Shown here one piece after another: positions 43,517 through 63,487 of a stretch of 64,000 nucleotides of DNA (the stretch's first letter is position 1; each line of letters opens with the position of its first letter). The stretch is from Collinsella ihumii (GTDB lineage: Bacteria > Actinomycetota > Coriobacteriia > Coriobacteriales > Coriobacteriaceae). The stretch is taken from positions 124,001 through 188,000 of the forward strand of contig NZ_FCOU01000007.1 in the NCBI RefSeq assembly GCF_900046475.1, given 5' to 3'. The notes under the pieces were generated by a model. The model made no database searches and was not told the origin of the DNA. It worked only from the letters and a program-made list of their open reading frames with translations. Both the position numbers and the translations under genes were made by a program.

Positions 43517-43617
43517 TGCATATGTTCGGCCGGACGAAGATCGTCAAGGTCGGGCTGGAGATTGTGAGTAAGCGGTAATCACCGCGAGTCGGGGCCGGGT
43601 GCCGGGAGGTGCCTGGT

Positions 43618-44442
43618 GTGGTGAAGATGGCTGAAGAGAATATGAGCGGCTGCGTCGTGGAAACGCGCGGCGGATCTTCGTGTGACGCGGTCTCCGCCGA
43701 GGGGGTATTCGACGGGGGTTCGTCCGCGAGTTCAGGGTCGGGGTCGACGGTCTATGCGGATCTGCACGTGCCCGTTTCGGGGACACGTGAGCGCGCTGAG
43801 CGCGAGAGCCGGCGCGGTCGCCGCTATGCCCCGCTGCGGCGCGCGGAGGATTGGGACCGGACCCGTGTGGGGTACCGCGTCGTCAAGCGCGCCTTCGACA
43901 TCGTGTTCAGCTTGGCGGTAATCCTCGTCGCGCTCGTACCGTCTGCACTGCTGTGCCTGGCGATCCGTCTCGAGACCCCGGGGTGCCCGCTGTACGGCCA
44001 AAAGCGCGTGGGCAGGATCGGGCCGGACGGCAAGCCCTGCGAGTTCATCATGTGGAAGTTCCGCAGCATGGTGAAGGATGCCGACGCGACGAAGGCGGAC
44101 CTCTTGGAGAAAAACGAGGTCTCCGGCCCCATGTTCAAGATGGCCGATGATCCCCGCGTCACCCGCGCGGGGCGGTTCATCCGCCGGCACTCCATGGCTC
44201 CGGTGATAATAGGGACACCGGGCGACGGGGAGCCGACCAAATCCTTATCGCATCCAGTAAATTCCTCACTTGACCTGCATAAATGCGAGCGTCTCCCGGA
44301 ACCTTTCCTGGTTGCGCAAACCCATTATACCAGCATCCAATTCTTGTCTTTTGCCGTTTTTGGGGCCCCGACGGGCACCTGGGAGCGGCCTTTCTGCGCC
44401 TGCGGAGGGACCTCCCTCCAGGGCCTCAGGGCGGTGGCATAG
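43618..44442 (+). pseudogene. truncated phosphoglycosyl (sugar) transferase
   Basis: The first part is a bacterial sugar transferase that would load the first sugar-phosphate onto undecaprenyl phosphate: a disordered N-terminus, one membrane segment (FDIVFSLAVILVALVPSALLCLA), GQKRVGRIGPDG, WKFRSMVKDAD and KMADDPRVTRAGRFIRRHS. After that Ser (near 44190) the expected LDELPQ...GDMSLVGPRP block is missing and an unrelated 80-codon tail follows, so the catalytic C-terminal part is lost. A minus-strand frame inside the tail (44277-44350) looks transposase-like but I cannot name it. GTG 43618 is favoured by GGGAGG upstream. An intact relative follows. Confidence 0.75.
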
Positions 44443-45264
44443 ATGGCGGACGACGTCATGAAGAAGGCCTCGACCGTTGCAGCCGGGAACGGTCGCGGAG
44501 CCCGGCTCTCGTCCGGCGGCCCGGGCGCGGCATGGCGATGCCACAGCGACGGGGGAGCGTGCGTCGCGGCGGCCGAGGGTTGCGACCCCGAGGTCGTCGC
44601 CGCGGCCGAGGGTTGCGACCCCGAGGTCGTCGCCGCGGCCGAGAGGCTCTCCAGGAACTACGCCTACTGCTTCGTCAAGCGCACCTTTGACATCGCCTTC
44701 AGCCTGTTCGTCCTGGTCTGCTTCTGCTGGCTGTTCGCCATCGTCGCGATCGCCATCAAGCTCGACGACCCGAAGGGCCCGGTCCTCTTCAGGCAGAGGA
44801 GGGTGACCAAGGACGGGCGTGAGTTCACCATGTACAAGTTCCGCAGCATGTGCGCGGACGCGGAGGAGCGCCTCGCCGAGCTCAGGGCACTCAACGAGAA
44901 GACCGGTCCGGTGTTCAAGATGCGCGACGATCCCCGCATCACGCGCGTCGGCCGCCTGCTGCGCCGCGTCTCGCTCGATGAGCTGCCTCAGTTCGCCAAC
45001 GTCCTCAAGGGCGACCTCTCCGTGGTCGGCCCGCGCCCTGCGCTGCCCAGCGAGGTCGCGGAGTACACACCGTACCAGCGTCAGCGCCTATTGGTGAAGG
45101 CGGGCATCACCTGCTACTGGCAGACGCGCAGGAACCGTGACTCCATCACCTTCGACGAGTGGGTCGACCTCGACCTTCTGTATATCAAAAAGTGCAGCCT
45201 CTGGACCGACGTCAAGCTGATCGTCCAGACCGTGGGCTGCGTGCTCACATTCCAAGGGGAGTAG
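44443..45264 (+). CDS. phosphoglycosyl (sugar) transferase
   Basis: A 273-residue monotopic membrane enzyme starting glycan assembly on undecaprenyl phosphate. After an Ala-rich N-terminus with an 11-residue duplication come the membrane segment (FDIAFSLFVLVCFCWLFAIVAIA), RQRRVTKDGREFTMYKFRSM, KMRDDPRITRVGRLLRRVSLDELPQ (split here: the SLDELPQ block is present, unlike in the upstream copy), GDLSVVGPRPALP and the CYWQTRRNRDS end. All blocks of the family are present. It is the probable functional initiator for this locus, replacing the truncated copy before it. Confidence 0.9.
   Translation: MADDVMKKASTVAAGNGRGARLSSGGPGAAWRCHSDGGACVAAAEGCDPEVVAAAEGCDPEVVAAAERLSRNYAYCFVKRTFDIAFSLFVLVCFCWLFAIVAIAIKLDDPKGPVLFRQRRVTKDGREFTMYKFRSMCADAEERLAELRALNEKTGPVFKMRDDPRITRVGRLLRRVSLDELPQFANVLKGDLSVVGPRPALPSEVAEYTPYQRQRLLVKAGITCYWQTRRNRDSITFDEWVDLDLLYIKKCSLWTDVKLIVQTVGCVLTFQGE
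44569..44643 (+). repeat. 33-bp in-frame tandem repeat (2.3 copies)
   Basis: Units 44569-44601 and 44602-44634 are identical and a third starts at 44635. They encode AAEGCDPEVVA twice near the N-terminus of the sugar transferase. Copy number can change without breaking the frame. Confidence 0.9.
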
Positions 45265-51117: not shown

Positions 51118-52373
51118 ATGGTCGATGTTTCGTTGGGGGCGCCTAGGGCGTCACGCCGCTCATCGCTGTTTCTTGAGACCAGCGTGGGGGATCTCGCTCT
51201 GCTATTGTTTCTGAATTTGGCGCTTTTCGGAGAGGCGATCCAGGGCGCGATGGGCTTTTCTTATTGTGATGAGATTGCGACTATTGCCGTGGTATGCGCC
51301 GCCTTTTTTCGATTTCATGCAAGCAAAAACGCTCTTGCCGACGGCATGTCAACTTCGTCCAGACTTGCTCTGGTATGGTTGTTTGTGGTAGTTTCCGCAG
51401 CTTTCCTCGGCAATGCGTTCTGCGGGGTCCATGCATCAACCGCGGCGATTCTGACGGATTTTCTTACTTGCTGCAAATTCCCAATTGCGCTAATTGCCTC
51501 AATCTATGCCTTTGCTTGTTCTGAACGCCTTTCTGCGCTTTTCGAAATCGAGGCGAAGATTCTTCTCGTCGTGATGACGGTGCTTGGAATCGGGAATCTG
51601 TTTTTCGATTTCGGTATGGGATCGGAGGCTCGGTTTGGCATCAGGGCTTCTTTTACTTTTGTGTTCGATCATCCGACATACCTTGTATTTTGCGCCGCCG
51701 GGCTTACGGCGTTCCTCATGAAGGATAGGGAGCGCAATATGCCTTTTATTGTCATGGGCATGCTTGTTGTTTTGCTGTCGCTGCGGTCAAAGGGCTTTGC
51801 ATTTGCGGCAGTCTGTCTCCTGTTGCTCTTGACCTTTGGCAAGAGCAACAGGCTTTCGGTGGTGCATATTGCGCTGGGGCTGGCAGCCGTAGCACTTATC
51901 GGCATGGATCAGTACATCAACTATTACCAATCCGCAGGATACGCAAGAGGCGAGCTGGCTCGCCAGGCGATTGCCGTCGCAAACGATTATTTCCCGCTCG
52001 GGACTGGCTTCGCGACGTATGGGTCCGCCGTCACCGCTCAGATCGATAATTACTCGCCGCTTTATTACGCGTACGGACTTTCTACTGTTTGGGGTCTTGC
52101 CCCTGGGGCAGCATCGTTTTTGAGTGACACTTTTTGGCCTACGGTCTTGGCGCAGTTCGGTTATTTCGGGTTGGTTGCCTTTGCCGCTCTTTTAATTGCT
52201 CTGTTCGTCATGTGCTATAAGGCAGGGGGGGGTCTCGCCTCCCAGTCATTTGCATTTTTGCCTATCTCCTCATCTCAAGCACGTCTGAGAGCTCGTTCTT
52301 TAATCCGAGCGCTGCCTATCTTGCAATGTGCGCTGGGCTTGCGATTTGCCCCGCTGGGGAGCGACGCTCATGA
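51118..52373 (+). CDS. Wzy-like O-antigen/polysaccharide polymerase, out of frame at a poly-G tract
   Basis: A multi-membrane-spanning protein with about ten hydrophobic segments and the loop between late helices typical of Wzy/O-antigen ligase proteins (FPLGTGFATYGSAVTA). The frame continues normally to residue 369. At an 8-G run (52225-52232) it shifts into an unrelated tail ending at 52446. Reading with 6 or 9 G instead continues with SRLPVICIFAYLLISSTSES, NPSAAYLAMCAGLAI and stops at TGA 52371-52373, which overlaps the next start (ATGA). The coordinates given are for the in-phase protein (about 418 residues). As sequenced the C-terminus is replaced, so activity is doubtful. Confidence 0.8.
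52225..52232 (+). repeat. poly-G tract (8 G) inside the first polymerase gene
   Basis: Eight G; 6 or 9 would keep the natural C-terminus in frame. Candidate slipped-strand switch. Confidence 0.9.
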
Positions 52374-53734
52374 TGACGGTGGCTCTTTCAGCATTTCCCT
52401 GCATAGACCTCTCTCGCGTTTTGCGGGGGTGGTTCGCAGTGCTTAGCGGCGCAAAAAGAAGATGTGAAGGCGCAACTGCCTTCTCGGTCATCGCTTTATT
52501 GGTTTGTCTTTTCGCTTTCTGCTCTTCGCTTATCACATACCGTGTGAGCATCCTGCTGTTTGCTTCGGCAATTGTTCTGGTTGCAATCTTGGCGGTTCGA
52601 AGTGGGCGGCTTCTCGAATTTGACTTGCGCGCAATCGTTCCGATTCTGCCTTGGCTCCTCGTGGCTGTTATGGCGGCTGTCGGTTATGTCGCTGGCGGCG
52701 GCTACGACCTTGCCGCCACTGTCGCGCTGGTCTGTACCGTGGCCCTTGCCGTCTTTTCGGTTGAAAATACGAAATGGATTGAGCCTACAATCACCGCATT
52801 CATCGCGGTCCTGCTCGTTTTTGCCATCGCGACTATAGCCTGCTACGTTTTTCCTCAGCTATATTCAGGCTTTATCAAGCCGACTTTCTATTCCAACGTT
52901 CCAATGGCTCAGGACTATCGGTCAGGTTTGGCATCGCACTATAGCCATAACGGGACATTCTGCACAATAGGCTTCATCCTCACTTCGGCTTTGGCGTTTT
53001 ACGATTCTCAAAAGACGAGAAGCAAGCGGTTCTACGTTTTTCTTGCTCTGGTCTTCTTTGCTGCCTTGGTGCTTACGACCAAGAGGGCGCATCTGCTTTG
53101 CGGCATATTCGCGGTCGGTTTTGTCTACCTGATTTCAAACAATCAGCATCGGTATCTAAAGGCCATCGGCGTCGGTGCATTGGTGGTTCTGGCGGTTGCC
53201 GTGCTTGCGCCGCTCATCCCTGGTATCGAGGCGACAATCGAAAGGTTGACCACCACTTTCTCGAGCAACACAAGCTTTGAGGACAATGTCAATAACAGGA
53301 CTTATTTGTGGGATTACGCCCTCAACGGTCTTGCTCAGTCGCCCGTGTTCGGGCATGGGTGGACGAGCTACTGCTATCGCTGGCCAGACGGCGTGACGAT
53401 TACCTATATGGCCCATAATGAGCTGCTTAACCTCCTTTACGAAACAGGCTATGTGGGGACAGCCGTTGTTTTGCTGGGATGTGCAGCGAGCCTGCTGCTC
53501 ACGTTCCACACGATTGCCTTGACCGATGACGGGCATTTCAAGGCGTACCTTCGCCTGTCTTTGTGCGTTCAGATTTTTTTCTTGACATACGCTTTCACGA
53601 GCGGGGCTTTGTTTACGACTATCCCAAACCTGATTACCTATTTCCTCGCCGTGGCGATTATGGCGAGCATTAGATGGGGCGCGCTGAAACGGGATCGAAC
53701 GCCGAGAACATTGCATGGGGGGGGGAACAGATGA
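52370..53734 (+). CDS. second Wzy-like polysaccharide polymerase/ligase
   Basis: A 454-residue membrane protein with about eleven hydrophobic segments and the O-antigen-ligase signature region near residues 320-350: NNRTYLWDYALNGLAQSPVFGHG, followed by MAHNELLNLLYETGYVGTAVVLL. It joins repeat units or ligates the polymer outside the membrane. ATG 52370 overlaps the in-phase stop of the previous gene; a GTG at 52328 in the same frame is less likely. The last codons cross a 9-G tract, and the TGA stop overlaps the next start (ATGA at 53731). Two polymerase-like genes in one locus may mean one makes the repeat linkage and the other a transfer. Confidence 0.87.
   Translation: MMTVALSAFPCIDLSRVLRGWFAVLSGAKRRCEGATAFSVIALLVCLFAFCSSLITYRVSILLFASAIVLVAILAVRSGRLLEFDLRAIVPILPWLLVAVMAAVGYVAGGGYDLAATVALVCTVALAVFSVENTKWIEPTITAFIAVLLVFAIATIACYVFPQLYSGFIKPTFYSNVPMAQDYRSGLASHYSHNGTFCTIGFILTSALAFYDSQKTRSKRFYVFLALVFFAALVLTTKRAHLLCGIFAVGFVYLISNNQHRYLKAIGVGALVVLAVAVLAPLIPGIEATIERLTTTFSSNTSFEDNVNNRTYLWDYALNGLAQSPVFGHGWTSYCYRWPDGVTITYMAHNELLNLLYETGYVGTAVVLLGCAASLLLTFHTIALTDDGHFKAYLRLSLCVQIFFLTYAFTSGALFTTIPNLITYFLAVAIMASIRWGALKRDRTPRTLHGGGNR
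53717..53725 (+). repeat. poly-G tract (9 G) at a stop/start junction
   Basis: Nine G directly before AACAGATGA. With 9 the upstream gene stops on the ATGA overlap; with 10 its frame would run into the next gene as a fusion; with 8 it ends elsewhere. The tract also supplies the only purine-rich ribosome-site candidate for the next gene. Confidence 0.9.
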
Positions 53735-54648
53735 GCCTGATTTCGAAAGCAACTCAATACATCAAGCACCCGCTCAGGGTGTATTCCCTGGTCTCGCGCG
53801 CAGGGTTGACGCGCTTTGTTCCGGATGAGCAACACTTGCGCATCATGTACAGAGCGCTAATCGGTAAGAGGCTCGACCTGAATAACCCGCAGGGGTTCAA
53901 CGAAAAGCTCAACTGGCTGAAACTGCACGATCGTAACCCGCTTTACAACACACTTGTAGACAAGTTGGCGGTAAAGAAGTGGGTTGCCGACAAAATCGGC
54001 GAGAAGTACGTCACTGAGACTTATGGATACTGGAGAGATGTCGAGGACGTCTCGATAGATGGGCTTCCTAACCAGTTTGTCCTCAAAACAAACCACGACA
54101 GCGGTGGAGTCGCGATTTGCCGCGATAAGGCGACTTTCGACTTCGATGCGGCGAAGAAGCTCCTCGCAAAGCATTTGAAGCGTAACTATTTCTGGTGGAC
54201 CCGGGAGTGGCCGTATAAGGACGTCATCCCCGTGGTGATGGCCGAGGAATACCTCGAGGACGAAGGGCATGAGTCCGGTCTGGTCGATTACAAGGTTACC
54301 TGCTTCGGGGGCAAGCCGACCCTCATCGAGGTGCATAGGGGCAGGTTCGGCGAGCATACCTGCAACTACTACGACGCCGAGTGGAATCCCGTTCGCATAG
54401 ACTGGGCTGGAATCCCCGTTTCTCCCGTCGAGGTTGAGCGTCCGGAGAATCTGAAGGAGATGCTTGAGCTGAGCGCCGAGCTTACGCGGGGGATACCGCA
54501 AGTTCGCTGTGACTGGTACGTGCTCGGAGAAAGGCTGATATTCGGGGAGCTGACGCTTTTCAACGGGGCGGGGTTGGATCCGATTGACGATGAGAGTGAC
54601 TCAAAGCTGGGCTCTTTGATTGACCTCGGCCTGGCTCACGGCGATTAA
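53731..54648 (+). CDS. TupA-like ATP-grasp protein
   Basis: A 305-residue ATP-grasp protein of the TupA-type group found in surface-polysaccharide loci; the founding member contributes to teichuronopeptide synthesis, so an amide or peptide-like ligation to glucuronate-containing polymer is possible. Visible family features are NPQGFNEKLNWLKLHDR, LVDKLAVKKWV, FVLKTNHDSGG (nucleotide-binding strand), VDYKVTCFGGKPTLIEV, and RCDWYVLGERLIFGELTLFNGAG (metal-binding end). UDP-glucuronate is available from ugd. ATG 53731 overlaps the previous stop; its expression may depend on the G tract just upstream. Confidence 0.87.
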   Translation: MSLISKATQYIKHPLRVYSLVSRAGLTRFVPDEQHLRIMYRALIGKRLDLNNPQGFNEKLNWLKLHDRNPLYNTLVDKLAVKKWVADKIGEKYVTETYGYWRDVEDVSIDGLPNQFVLKTNHDSGGVAICRDKATFDFDAAKKLLAKHLKRNYFWWTREWPYKDVIPVVMAEEYLEDEGHESGLVDYKVTCFGGKPTLIEVHRGRFGEHTCNYYDAEWNPVRIDWAGIPVSPVEVERPENLKEMLELSAELTRGIPQVRCDWYVLGERLIFGELTLFNGAGLDPIDDESDSKLGSLIDLGLAHGD

Positions 54649-55760: not shown

Positions 55761-55789
55761 ACGAGCCGATGAACTGCCGAGGATTCACC

Positions 55790-56955
55790 ATGTCCCTTAA
55801 GACAACAGTAAAGAACGCAATCTACGACGTCACCGATGATCTGCTCGTCGGCCATGCGCATAAGGTAGAGATGGCGAAGTTCCGAGACCCGAAAAGAACT
55901 GCGATTCTCGAGCAGGCCGATTTGACCGATGGCCAGAAGCGCGCCATCGACGACTTCTATGTCGAGAACTACGGCAAGAAGATCCCCTATACTTGGCATC
56001 GCCACAACCTGGGGATCTCCGGCAACTTCGATGTGCGGTTCTTCCCGGAGCTGCTGTTCATCCCTGAGTTCGAGCGCTACATGAACCAGCCTTCCGAGTA
56101 CGCGACGGTTTTCGAGGATAAGAACCTCCTCTACCTCTTTGCCGATAAGGCCGATGTGAGGACCACAAGAAGCTTGCTCACGAGAACGGCAGGGATTTAT
56201 CGCGATGCAAACATGAAAGAGCTTACCGAGCGGGAGGCTCTTGATTTTGCGGGAAGCGTCAGAAAATGTTTCGCGAAGCCGACGGTCGGCACCTGCTCTG
56301 GGCAGGGCTGCGGTGCCTATGATTTCGACGACGGGGTCGACAGGGGCACAGGCCTGGAAATCAAGACGCTCCTTGATGAACTTGGGGCCGATTTCTCCAT
56401 TCAGGAGCCGATAACCTGCCATCGCTCCATCTCTGCGCTTCACCCAGAGAGCGTTAATACTTTGAGGGTCATGACATATCGATGGCGCGACGAGCTCAGG
56501 GTGCTCCCCATGCTCATGAGAATCGGATGCGGGAAGAGCGCGGTCGACAACGCGCACGCTGGCGGCGTGTTCATCGGCGTGAGCGACCAAGGTTTACTTG
56601 CGCCCTCCGCCCTCACCGAGTTCAACGAGCGCTTCACCAAGCACCCGGACACCGGCGTCGTGTTCGACGGCTACCGGATATTCGGTGCCGAGAAGGTCAT
56701 CGGTGCCGCTAGGCGGATGCATGCGACTATGCCCCAGGTGGGTATAGTTAGCTGGGACTTCACCGTTGACGAAGACGGTGAGCCCCTCGTCATCGAGGCA
56801 AACATCCGGGGGGGGGATCCATATGGCTACCTCAGATGGCGAATGGCGTGCCCGGGTTTGGCGACGCTACGGCCGACATCCTGCGTTGGCTGCGGTTCAT
56901 GAATGCGAAGAAGCCGCATGAGCGATTGAATTACAAGTATGGTTATCACGACTAG
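55790..56955 (+). CDS. sugar-transfer-associated ATP-grasp protein, out of frame at a poly-G tract
   Basis: An ATP-grasp protein of the type found with polysaccharide glycosyltransferases. The body reads GTCSGQGCGAYDF, RVMTYRWRDELRVLPMLMRI, NAHAGGVFIGV and VSWDFTVDEDGEPLVIEANIRGG, ending at the metal/ATP site. A 9-G run (56808-56816) then shifts the frame, giving an unrelated 27-codon end with a stop at 56902. With 7 or 10 G the frame continues GSIWLPQMANGVPGFGDATA and ends at TAG 56953-56955, which fits the family. ATG 55790 is preferred over 55769 because GAGGA lies 7 bases upstream. Coordinates refer to the in-phase gene. Confidence 0.8.
56808..56816 (+). repeat. poly-G tract (9 G) inside the ATP-grasp gene
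   Basis: Nine G; 7 or 10 would keep the natural C-terminus. Third such tract in the locus and the second that is out of phase. Confidence 0.9.
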
Positions 56956-60850: not shown

Positions 60851-61171
60851 ATGCCCTCATCGCGAGGATGTTGCAGCAGCTACGACTGCATCGTCAAAAT
60901 CAAGGGCGTTACCACACGCCCGATACTGTTCAGCCAGCTCATGCGGAGCGACGGAGAGGGGGCGATAAACCCTGAGGAGCTGTTCGCAGACGACCGCAGC
61001 CCCGCCTCCGAGCAGCAGCGCGCCCACGAGGACGAGCTGCATTCGCTCATGCGCAGCATACTTGACTGGGTGATATCGTTTCTGAGCGAGTCCAGCCAGG
61101 GCACCATTCGCGCCATCTACTTCGAGGGCAAGACCGTCAAGCAGCACAGTGAGGATGAGTACTGCGGATAG
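60851..61171 (+). CDS. small protein of unknown function
   Basis: A 106-residue reading frame with GGGGAGGAAAC before its ATG. Residues 10-45 contain VKIKGVTTRPILFSQLM and 55-95 a helical stretch (ARA-free, rich in Leu/Ser: HSLMRSILDWVISFLSES). The end IRAIYFEGKTVKQHSEDEYCG faintly resembles the start of a sigma-like or phage regulator helix-turn-helix that is cut short, but I do not trust that enough to name it. It may be what remains of a gene damaged by the adjoining insertion sequences. A stem GGAGCGC / GCGCTCC lies just upstream. Confidence 0.4.
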   Translation: MPSSRGCCSSYDCIVKIKGVTTRPILFSQLMRSDGEGAINPEELFADDRSPASEQQRAHEDELHSLMRSILDWVISFLSESSQGTIRAIYFEGKTVKQHSEDEYCG

Positions 61172-61192
61172 TTGGTACTCATGTTCCGCGCG

Positions 61193-61227
61193 GGCGGTAC
61201 CGCCTCTCCGTTGGAGGCGGTACCGCC
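61193..61227. terminator. perfect 14-bp stem-loop between the small ORF and istB
   Basis: GGCGGTACCGCCTC / GAGGCGGTACCGCC around a 7-base loop, followed on the plus strand by TTTCTCT. It could end transcription from the left or be part of an IS21-type element end. Confidence 0.6.
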
Positions 61228-61250
61228 TTTCTCTCCATCGGGTACCGGAA

Positions 61251-62031
61251 TCATTCCCAGTACGACTCGTCGTCCCCTCGCTTCAGCCTCGTCGTGTACT
61301 CCCGCATGTTCGGCCCCTTTATGTCGAGGAACCTCGCATGCTCCACTATCCTGTTGAGGATGGAGTCCGCGCACAGGTCCGAGTTGATCCTCAGGTATCA
61401 CTGGTCGGGCTCCAGCTGCGTGGCGATGAGCGTGGAGCCGCACCCCCTCCCGGGCCTCGAGCATCTCGAAGAGGTCTATGGCGTTGAGCTGGTTCTCGAC
61501 CGGAGTGGTGAAGAAGTCGTCGAGGACCAGCAGGTCGGGCTTGGAGAAGCGGCCGAGGGCCTCGTACAGGGAGTCCTCCGCCCTCGCCACGTTCAGCTCC
61601 CTGAACATATCGTTGAGCCCGGCGTAGCGGACCGAGTGGAGCCTCCTGCATGCCGCGACGCCGAGCGCTTGGGCTATGTAGGACTTGCCGCCGCCGCTCT
61701 CCGAGATGATCACGAGGTTCTCCCTGGCCTCGACCCACGAGCACGAGGCGAGGCGGGCGATGCGGTCGCGGGTCACGCTGCGGTCGGGCAGGTAGTATAT
61801 GTCCTCGACGCAGGCGGTCTTGATCTTGAAGCGGGCGTCGCGCATCGCCTTCTGGATCTTGCGGTTCTCCCGGGCCTCGAGCTCCGCGTCGATGCACATC
61901 CCGACCTTGTCCTCGAAGGTGAGGTCGTCGCACGCCTCGTCCTCGACGATCTCCCGCAGCTTGTCGCCGAAGGCGCCGACGCGCCACCTCGCGAACAGGG
62001 CGAAGTCCTCCTCCGTCAGCACCGCGCTCAC
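61251..62031 (-). pseudogene. istB-like IS21-family ATP-binding gene, doubly broken
   Basis: From GTG 62031 the frame encodes an IstB helper: AVLTEEDFALFARWRVGAFG at the N-terminus, a P-loop ESGGGKSYIAQALG, and Walker B LLVLDDFFTTP. In the C-rich stretch near 61447 (CCCCCTCCC on the plus strand) the frame shifts. The correct continuation (GCGSTLIATQLEPDQ, then LRINSDLCADSILNRIVEHA) is in another frame and also has a TGA where Trp is expected (about 61395). The family's end (GDDESYWE) is reached at 61251. No istA is present. The element is therefore dead and incomplete. Confidence 0.82.
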
Positions 62032-62051
62032 CCCATGTCCCTGCGGTAGTA

Positions 62052-62075
62052 TGAATCTGAATCTGAATCTGAATC
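62052..62075. repeat. TGAATC tandem repeat (4 copies)
   Basis: Four exact hexamer copies directly before TGCCCC. The last copy probably forms the TGAATCTGCCCC end of the IS3-family element. Confidence 0.85.
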
Positions 62076-62144
62076 TGCCCCATTCCCGTTGACACACGGA
62101 CTTCCGTTTCGGCATGATGCCGTAAACGGGGAAAGGAGGCGGGG

Positions 62145-62432
62145 ATGGGGAAACCGTCACCGAAGTACACCGCGGAGTTCAAGCAGCAGGCGGTGAGGCT
62201 GTACAGGGAGCGAGGCGGCACCTACGCCGAAACCGCCCGTGAGCTCGGGGTCGACCCGGGGAGCCTGTCGGACTGGGTCAAGAGGGCGGATGCCGCGCAG
62301 GCGCCGCCCGAGGACAACCCCTTCAAGGTGGCCGAGGAGAACCGGCGCCTGCGCAGGGAGGTCGAGCGGCTCAGGCGCGAGAACGAGGTGCTTTTAAAAG
62401 CGAGCGCCTTCTTCGCCAGCAGGCAGCTGTAG
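62145..62432 (+). CDS. IS3-family transposase OrfA
   Basis: A 95-residue helix-turn-helix protein (SPKYTAEFKQQAVRLYRERGG, ETARELGVDPGSLSDWVKR) with a leucine-zipper-like tail (ENRRLRREVERLRRENEVLLK). It binds the element ends. AAAGGAGG precedes the ATG. The OrfAB fusion would be made by slippage at 62393-62399. Confidence 0.9.
   Translation: MGKPSPKYTAEFKQQAVRLYRERGGTYAETARELGVDPGSLSDWVKRADAAQAPPEDNPFKVAEENRRLRREVERLRRENEVLLKASAFFASRQL
62393..62399 (+). promoter_or_regulatory. -1 frameshift heptamer TTTAAAA of the IS3 element
   Basis: Reads T-TTA-AAA in the orfA frame, fitting X-XXY-YYZ; slipping back one base enters the orfB frame with no stop before 62492. Confidence 0.7.
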
Positions 62433-62491
62433 GCGCCCGGGCGGAGAGGGCCAAGTTCGCTTTCATCCTTCTCAACGAAGGCTCCTGGAGC

Positions 62492-63487
62492 GTGTCCGAG
62501 ATGTGCGCCGCGCTGAAGGTCACCCGCCAGGGCTACTACGCGTGGAGGAAGAGGCCGCCCAGCGCGCACGACCTGCGCGATGCCGAGCTCGCGGCGAAGA
62601 TCTCCGAGATATACGGGGCGAGCCGGGGAAACTACGGGGCGCCGAAGGTCTTCGCCGAGCTCAAGAGGGCCGGCGAGCGGACCTCGCGCAAGCGCGTCGC
62701 GCGCCTCATGCGCGACAACGGCATGGTCGGAACGACGCGCGGCTGCGCCAGGAGGCCGAAGGGCGCGGCCAAACCGGCCGCGCCGCAGGCGAACGTGGCT
62801 CCCGACCTGGTCAAGCGAGACTTCTCGGCGGACGGGCCGAACCGCGCATGGTTCGCGGACATCACCTACGTGCGCACGCACCGGGGATGGCTCTACCTCG
62901 CCGTGGTCATGGACATATGGTCGAGGATGATAGTCGGTTGGTCGATGTCCCCGCACATGACGGCCGACCTTGCCGACGACGCGCTCAAGATGGCGATAGC
63001 GAGGCGGCGCCCGAAGAGGGGGTGCGTCCACCACAGCGACCACGGCTCTCAGTACGTGTCGCTGCTGCTGGGCAAGACGATGCGCGAAGCCGGCATCAGG
63101 CCCTCGATGGGGTCGGTCTCGTCCCCGTGGGACAACGCCGCGATGGAGTCGCTGATGGGCCTCATCAAGTCCGAGTGCGTACACGCCCGCACGTTCGAGA
63201 CGCGCGAGCAGGCAGCCCTCGAGATCTTCGACTACCTCAAGTGCTTCTACAACCGGGTGCGGATCCACTCGGCGCTGGGGCACCTCAGCCCCGAGGAGTT
63301 CGAGGCGAGGCATATGGAGGCCGACGCAAAAAGGCGGCGTACGAGAAGGACCTGTCCGCCCCGCTCAAGCCCGTGCTCGGCATCGCGAGCGACGCCGATT
63401 GCGACCGCGCCGACGAGCTCGCGCGTCGCGGCGAGGCCGCCATGGCCGACTTTCGCGAGCTTGTGGAGAAGAACCAGCTCGACATGA
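62492..63487 (+). CDS. IS3-family transposase OrfB (rve integrase core), 3' end replaced
   Basis: The catalytic part of the transposase. It has the HTH_21-like lead (KVTRQGYYAWRKR), then the DDE core: first Asp in WFADITYVRTHRGWLYLAVVMD, second in HHSDHGSQYVS, Glu in SLMGLIKSECVHA. The end NRVRIHSALGHLSPEEFEARH is the normal C-terminal block. After about 63333 the remaining codons to the stop at 63485-63487 are out-of-frame ricT DNA, not transposase. Expression is probably by -1 frameshift from orfA; the GTG at 62492 is only the first start in the open frame. Confidence 0.85.
   Translation: MSEMCAALKVTRQGYYAWRKRPPSAHDLRDAELAAKISEIYGASRGNYGAPKVFAELKRAGERTSRKRVARLMRDNGMVGTTRGCARRPKGAAKPAAPQANVAPDLVKRDFSADGPNRAWFADITYVRTHRGWLYLAVVMDIWSRMIVGWSMSPHMTADLADDALKMAIARRRPKRGCVHHSDHGSQYVSLLLGKTMREAGIRPSMGSVSSPWDNAAMESLMGLIKSECVHARTFETREQAALEIFDYLKCFYNRVRIHSALGHLSPEEFEARHMEADAKRRRTRRTCPPRSSPCSASRATPIATAPTSSRVAARPPWPTFASLWRRTSST

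Follow-up and report, generated by a model that had tools for sequence, protein, structure and literature searches.

Phase variation is usually treated as an on/off matter. C-terminal phase variation by G-tracts at the 3' ends of genes was described for Helicobacter canadensis by Snyder et al. 2010 (PMC2823697); one of these tracts could join HCAN_0660 to HCAN_0661, and the authors regarded a switch between separate and joined products as perhaps unprecedented. In the sortase-pilus genes of Bifidobacterium breve, replication slippage at a G-tract joins two open reading frames (ORFs), and mixed G11/G12 populations were measured (PMC9187656).

Here, we analyzed a 64,000-nucleotide stretch of the Collinsella ihumii genome (hereafter, the window), in which nine G precede the overlapping stop and start codons of a polymerase gene and a TupA-like ATP-grasp gene. 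As with HCAN_0660/HCAN_0661, the poly-G run is close to a gene's 3' end, a change in its length would merge that gene with the next one, and the tracts are clustered in a surface-glycan region (PMC2823697). However, both H. canadensis genes are hypothetical, the second encoding only 82 aa, whereas both partners at the Collinsella junction are defined enzymes, and this junction differs further in its start/stop overlap, in a tract that doubles as a ribosome site and in having a naturally fused relative. Length variation was present in H. canadensis reads, while the Collinsella tract is known from the sequence of one assembly. The likeness to B. breve, also a gut bacterium, is that intragenic G-tract slippage would join two ORFs, but in B. 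breve this turns one split gene on or off (PMC9187656), whereas both Collinsella ORFs are complete proteins. The coupled pairs of the GeneTack survey (PMC3711429) share with our junction a stop/start overlap resembling a frame transition, and fused homologues, but are not defined by a junction homopolymer. An earlier note on this DNA had presented the junction as following a switch logic different from simple on/off frameshifting; this holds in that both domains stay intact, but the logic has a precedent (Snyder et al. 2010, PMC2823697). Provided that the tract does vary in length, what would be added here to an already known separate-or-fused logic is the defined enzymes, the overlap, the ribosome-site tract and the fused relatives. 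A literature search on Collinsella and phase variation returned nothing relevant, and no paper on capsule G-tract switching in the genus was found.

Position and reading frames of the G9 tract

The upstream gene (52370-53734, + strand, with 52328 as the alternative start) encodes a 454-aa membrane protein of the Wzy_C (O-antigen ligase/polymerase) family (PF04932, E 3e-17; 63.2 bits against a curated cut-off of 31.7). Hydropathy analysis indicated about 10 hydrophobic segments and a basic C-terminal tail. With 5 K/R per 15 tail residues, and following the positive-inside rule, by which a basic tail is placed in the cytoplasm, the polymerase C terminus is probably cytoplasmic, which suggests that it could meet the need of a tethered cytoplasmic enzyme. 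The downstream gene (53731-54648, + strand) encodes a 305-aa TupA-like ATP-grasp protein (PF14305, ATPgrasp_TupA, E 3.9e-59; 200.5 bits against a curated cut-off of 25, covering profile positions 1-240 of 241), and N-terminal alignment showed that its start at 53731 agrees with the starts of homologues. Were translation to begin at ATG 53674, the tract would act as a conventional 5' on/off switch, but this start was rejected: its anti-SD pairing is only -2.7 versus -13.0 kcal/mol, and homologues begin at the position equal to 53731.

The tract (53717-53725, + strand) falls in the final 6 polymerase codons, ahead of the ATP-grasp ATG, and reads as nine G followed by AACAGATGA. The G-run is followed by AACAG and then by ATGA (53731-53734), so that it ends 5 nt 5' of the ATP-grasp ATG (53731-53733), which overlaps the polymerase TGA (53732-53734). 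The arrangement described in the earlier note, nine G ahead of an overlapping polymerase stop and ATP-grasp start, was therefore confirmed by the sequence, the ORFs and the Pfam matches.

Frame arithmetic for 7 to 12 G showed that 9 or 12 G specify the polymerase and the ATP-grasp as separate proteins. Ten G give a single in-frame polymerase/ATP-grasp ORF of 759 aa, exactly the fusion that had been predicted for one extra G, and 7 G also give an in-frame fusion, of 758 aa; the earlier arithmetic is thus corrected, since fusion arises with two fewer G too. With 8 or 11 G, the polymerase becomes 485 or 486 aa long, about 31 aa longer, and stops approximately 95 nt into the ATP-grasp gene. The Wzy_C domain and the entire ATP-grasp ORF were preserved at all computed lengths. 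The early truncation or domain loss of classical on/off translational phase variation was absent at 7-12 G; the arrangement resembles that of C-terminal phase variation, with a homopolymer at the 3' end of the frame whose length alters the C terminus only, and the stop/start overlap resembles that of translationally coupled pairs.

The tract as a predicted ribosome site

The tract is placed where the ribosome site of the ATP-grasp gene belongs, as the earlier note had remarked, with a 5-nt spacing and the strongest predicted anti-SD pairing among the tested starts. Using the general bacterial 16S 3' end in place of one read from this genome, the tract/anti-SD duplex was predicted at -13.0 kcal/mol for 9 G and at -9.8 to -14.1 kcal/mol across 7-11 G, while the other tested starts in the window paired at -2.2 to -10.8 kcal/mol, weaker than the G9 tract. 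Since the tract is predicted to pair with the anti-SD at every length, we expect ATP-grasp production whatever the state, so that any loss of coupling is probably mild and the polymerase C terminus would be the main length-dependent change. The strong predicted pairing argues against a strict dependence of the ATP-grasp start on upstream translation. One G fewer had been expected to move the stop and break coupling: the stop does move (485 aa, with a 31-aa tail), but losing the coupling would probably have a mild effect, because ATP-grasp initiation probably survives on the strong SD-like tract.

Distribution of G-runs in the window and genome

A count of G7 words in the window against dinucleotide shuffles gave no significant difference (8 observed, 10.65 expected). 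More informative is the distribution of run lengths, which is abnormal: on both strands, runs of 5, 6, 7, 8 and 9 occur 65, 2, 0, 1 and 2 times, respectively, and window-fitted Markov models (orders 1 to 5) predict 0.04-0.5 runs of 9 or more. The window has just three G-runs of at least 7, none of them farther than 4.6 kb from the capsule locus. A chance origin of the G9 run is unlikely.

The whole genome (2.84 Mb) contains 24 runs of 8 or more. Several fall in low-complexity, probably artefactual sequence, and others sit in surface-polysaccharide-type genes, namely two hexapeptide acyltransferases; a G10 run lies just upstream of a sugar transferase start. The acyltransferase tracts, G10 and G8, form a second region of this genome (G000:C10:36987-39648; L021, L022), a few kb from another Wzy_C gene (C10:34422). 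Among the artefact-like sequences, L010, L026 and L030 are very G-rich low-complexity stretches, and one such G-rich stretch precedes sequence resembling a transposase adapter end, which suggests assembly junk in the draft.

Neighbouring tracts in the capsule locus

A G8 tract (52225-52232, + strand) lies within the preceding gene (51118-52446, + strand), which encodes a polymerase-like membrane protein without a Pfam match and is apparently frameshifted at this G8. As assembled, the frame downstream of G8 encodes a polar, non-hydrophobic tail overrunning the Wzy_C start, whereas the alternative frame gives a hydrophobic C terminus, its stop codon overlapping the Wzy_C start at 52370 in another ATGA. 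A further G9 tract (56808-56816, + strand) lies in a sugar-transfer-associated ATP-grasp gene (55769-56902, + strand; PF14397, ATPgrasp_ST), which is frameshifted there and out of frame with a family-like C terminus. Adopting the other frame after this tract raised the ATPgrasp_ST score from 145.9 to 154.3 bits and extended the profile match from 255 to 266. Because the frames after both tracts are wrong, both genes appear to be off in the assembly, and two neighbouring off-frame tracts make a multi-tract phase-variable capsule locus credible. In this single genome, the frameshifted genes could also be decayed genes or assembly errors.

Tract length variation across the genus

Runs of 9 or more were present in all 43 genus genomes. 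Lengths were compared between species for sampled tracts with alike 30-nt flanks, at sites other than the 53717 tract. One orthologous tract has 10 G in G014 and 9 in G058, with identical 30-nt flanks; another has 9/9/10/10 G upstream of an open frame of ~2 kb, which is in frame only at 9; and further orthologous tracts with near-identical flanks have 9/9/10/12 and 11/9 G. Since orthologous tract lengths differ, tracts of this class change length on species timescales, and these differences at other genus G-tracts lend support to putative slippage at the junction. Nine G is at the short end for hypermutable tracts. No tract was found at a polymerase/ATP-grasp junction in genus relatives, among which the ATP-grasp gene occurs in only 5 genomes, and a contig search returned only distant relatives, at most 41% identical.

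The length-variable orthologous groups (9 to 12 G) comprise L080/L087, L081/L089/L115/L127 and L116/L119/L053/L058, and some of their tracts lie ahead of ~2-kb open frames that only particular tract lengths put in frame. In two genomes (L040:3393-3400 in G003; L042:13553 in G023), an acyltransferase-like gene carries a G8/G9 tract near its start and lies beside capsule sugar-nucleotide genes; in G003, its frame is open at 8 G only, among the lengths tried.

Natural fusions and junctional tracts in relatives

Of the 36 genomes with TupA, 12 have a Wzy_C domain no more than 2 kb from a TupA domain on the same strand, and in G222 the two genes overlap with no tract present. In a genome belonging to the same order (G185), an uninterrupted 785-aa ORF (L167:6322-8679) combines Wzy_C and ATPgrasp_TupA in matching domain order, a single case from a MAG-like draft genome that is 83% complete. 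The interdomain distance is 153 aa in this protein versus about 145 aa in the predicted Collinsella fusion. Identity between the two is 42% in the ATP-grasp portion; the polymerase portions show only distant similarity (26% over 165 aa), and the linker differs.

A second junctional tract was found in the same genus: the TupA gene of G003 contains G10 near its 3' end (L040, C19:5321-5330), followed by a second, half-length ATP-grasp ORF that is out of frame. By frame arithmetic, 9 G would give a 448-aa double-module protein, an architecture that is intact in single genes of G218 (446 aa) and G141 (449 aa). In both cases, a poly-G run between modules would choose between a short and a longer protein, with the long form intact in relatives, but the G003 tract joins ATP-grasp to a second, partial ATP-grasp, whereas the window tract joins ATP-grasp to a polymerase. 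Given the position of the G003 tract, the window is not the only place where a G-tract at a junction would select between a short and an extended protein. Together, the G185 fusion and the G003 tract favor the separate-or-fused frame logic.

Four other long frames were discarded as fusions. In those of 567, 802 and 837 aa (G255, G260 and G257, respectively), the upstream continuation is outside the neighbour's frame, and the 667-aa ORF of G337 has an N terminus that looks like that of a glycosyltransferase-containing protein.

Discussion

We consider it somewhat probable that the G9 run acts as a contingency tract prone to slippage, and that the junction it occupies is translationally coupled and belongs to a phase-variable capsule locus. 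Since many G-runs of the genus differ in length between species, G9 probably represents a rare form of an already known type of switch, one that chooses between separate and fused products. Replication slippage, which we presume to act at the 53717 site, would alter the tract by one or two G. With 9 (or 12) G, the polymerase would have its normal end and ATP-grasp would initiate at the overlapping ATG; with 10 or 7 G, the polymerase would be read into ATP-grasp, yielding a membrane-tethered protein of ~758 aa, probably along with some free ATP-grasp from internal initiation; with 8 or 11 G, the polymerase would acquire a 31-aa foreign tail ending inside the ATP-grasp gene. ATP-grasp would be made in every state, the tract being SD-like at each length, so that the tract would mainly vary the C terminus or tethering of the polymerase rather than turning a gene on or off. 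The protein output per state is what we infer for this locus, as is any effect on the capsule. More tentatively, slippage might reversibly tether an ATP-grasp modifying enzyme covalently to a capsule polymerase or set both free, with both activities kept, changing the manner rather than the presence of polymer decoration, with the G003 TupA tract as a second case in the genus; we regard this extended reading as possible but doubtful.

The tract follows the final transmembrane segment, where a shift of frame is least damaging, and a length change alters only the last polymerase residues; this would fit a hypermutable tract whose place at the junction is tolerated rather than selected, with the tracts at 52225 and 56808, which cut off conserved C termini, as the real phase switches; relatives also lack a tract at the polymerase/ATP-grasp junction. 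We think this rather unlikely, given that long G-runs are nearly absent elsewhere in the window, that another TupA gene of the genus carries a tract between modules and that the polymerase/ATP-grasp pair is also fused naturally. The tract lies 5 nt from the ATG and has a stronger predicted anti-SD pairing than any other tested start, which could instead mean that the G-run is mainly the ATP-grasp ribosome-binding site, tuned for strong re-initiation, with its length incidental or tuning translation. This is improbable in our judgment, because an ordinary GGAGG would suffice, pairing is almost constant over 7-11 G, which leaves nine unexplained, and runs of this class are also found within genes.

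Slippage of RNA polymerase or the ribosome on G9 could also produce a fixed minor share of fusion protein from an unchanged genome (programmed recoding), and the slippery G9 and products that are all one frame apart agree with this. However, no conserved frameshift signal was found, shuffled sequences fold better than the junction RNA and the genus tracts differ in length at the DNA level, making such recoding very improbable. No repeats were found around the junction. Nor do we give more than slight credence to a chance homopolymer or an error in a short-read draft assembly: although runs of at least 8 number 24 in the genome and some of them fall at contig ends made of low-complexity junk, both genes are intact at 9 G with a textbook ATGA overlap, and the runs cluster and recur genus-wide.

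If the contingency-tract explanation is true, a tract choosing between separate and fused enzymes would mean that slippage can rewire enzyme assemblies, and G-tract capsule phase variation would be a general habit of a gut-type genus. The relative with a frozen fused gene suggests that such tracts could be a route to fusion proteins.

Two observations concern the surroundings of the junction. At 43609-45264, two sugar-transferase-like ORFs lie in tandem, the first of which looks truncated after a conserved start (RAGRFIRRHS) and is perhaps a remnant. Transposase remnants at 61117-63487, comprising an IS21-like ATPase ORF (- strand) and an IS3-like pair (+ strand), bound the capsule locus.
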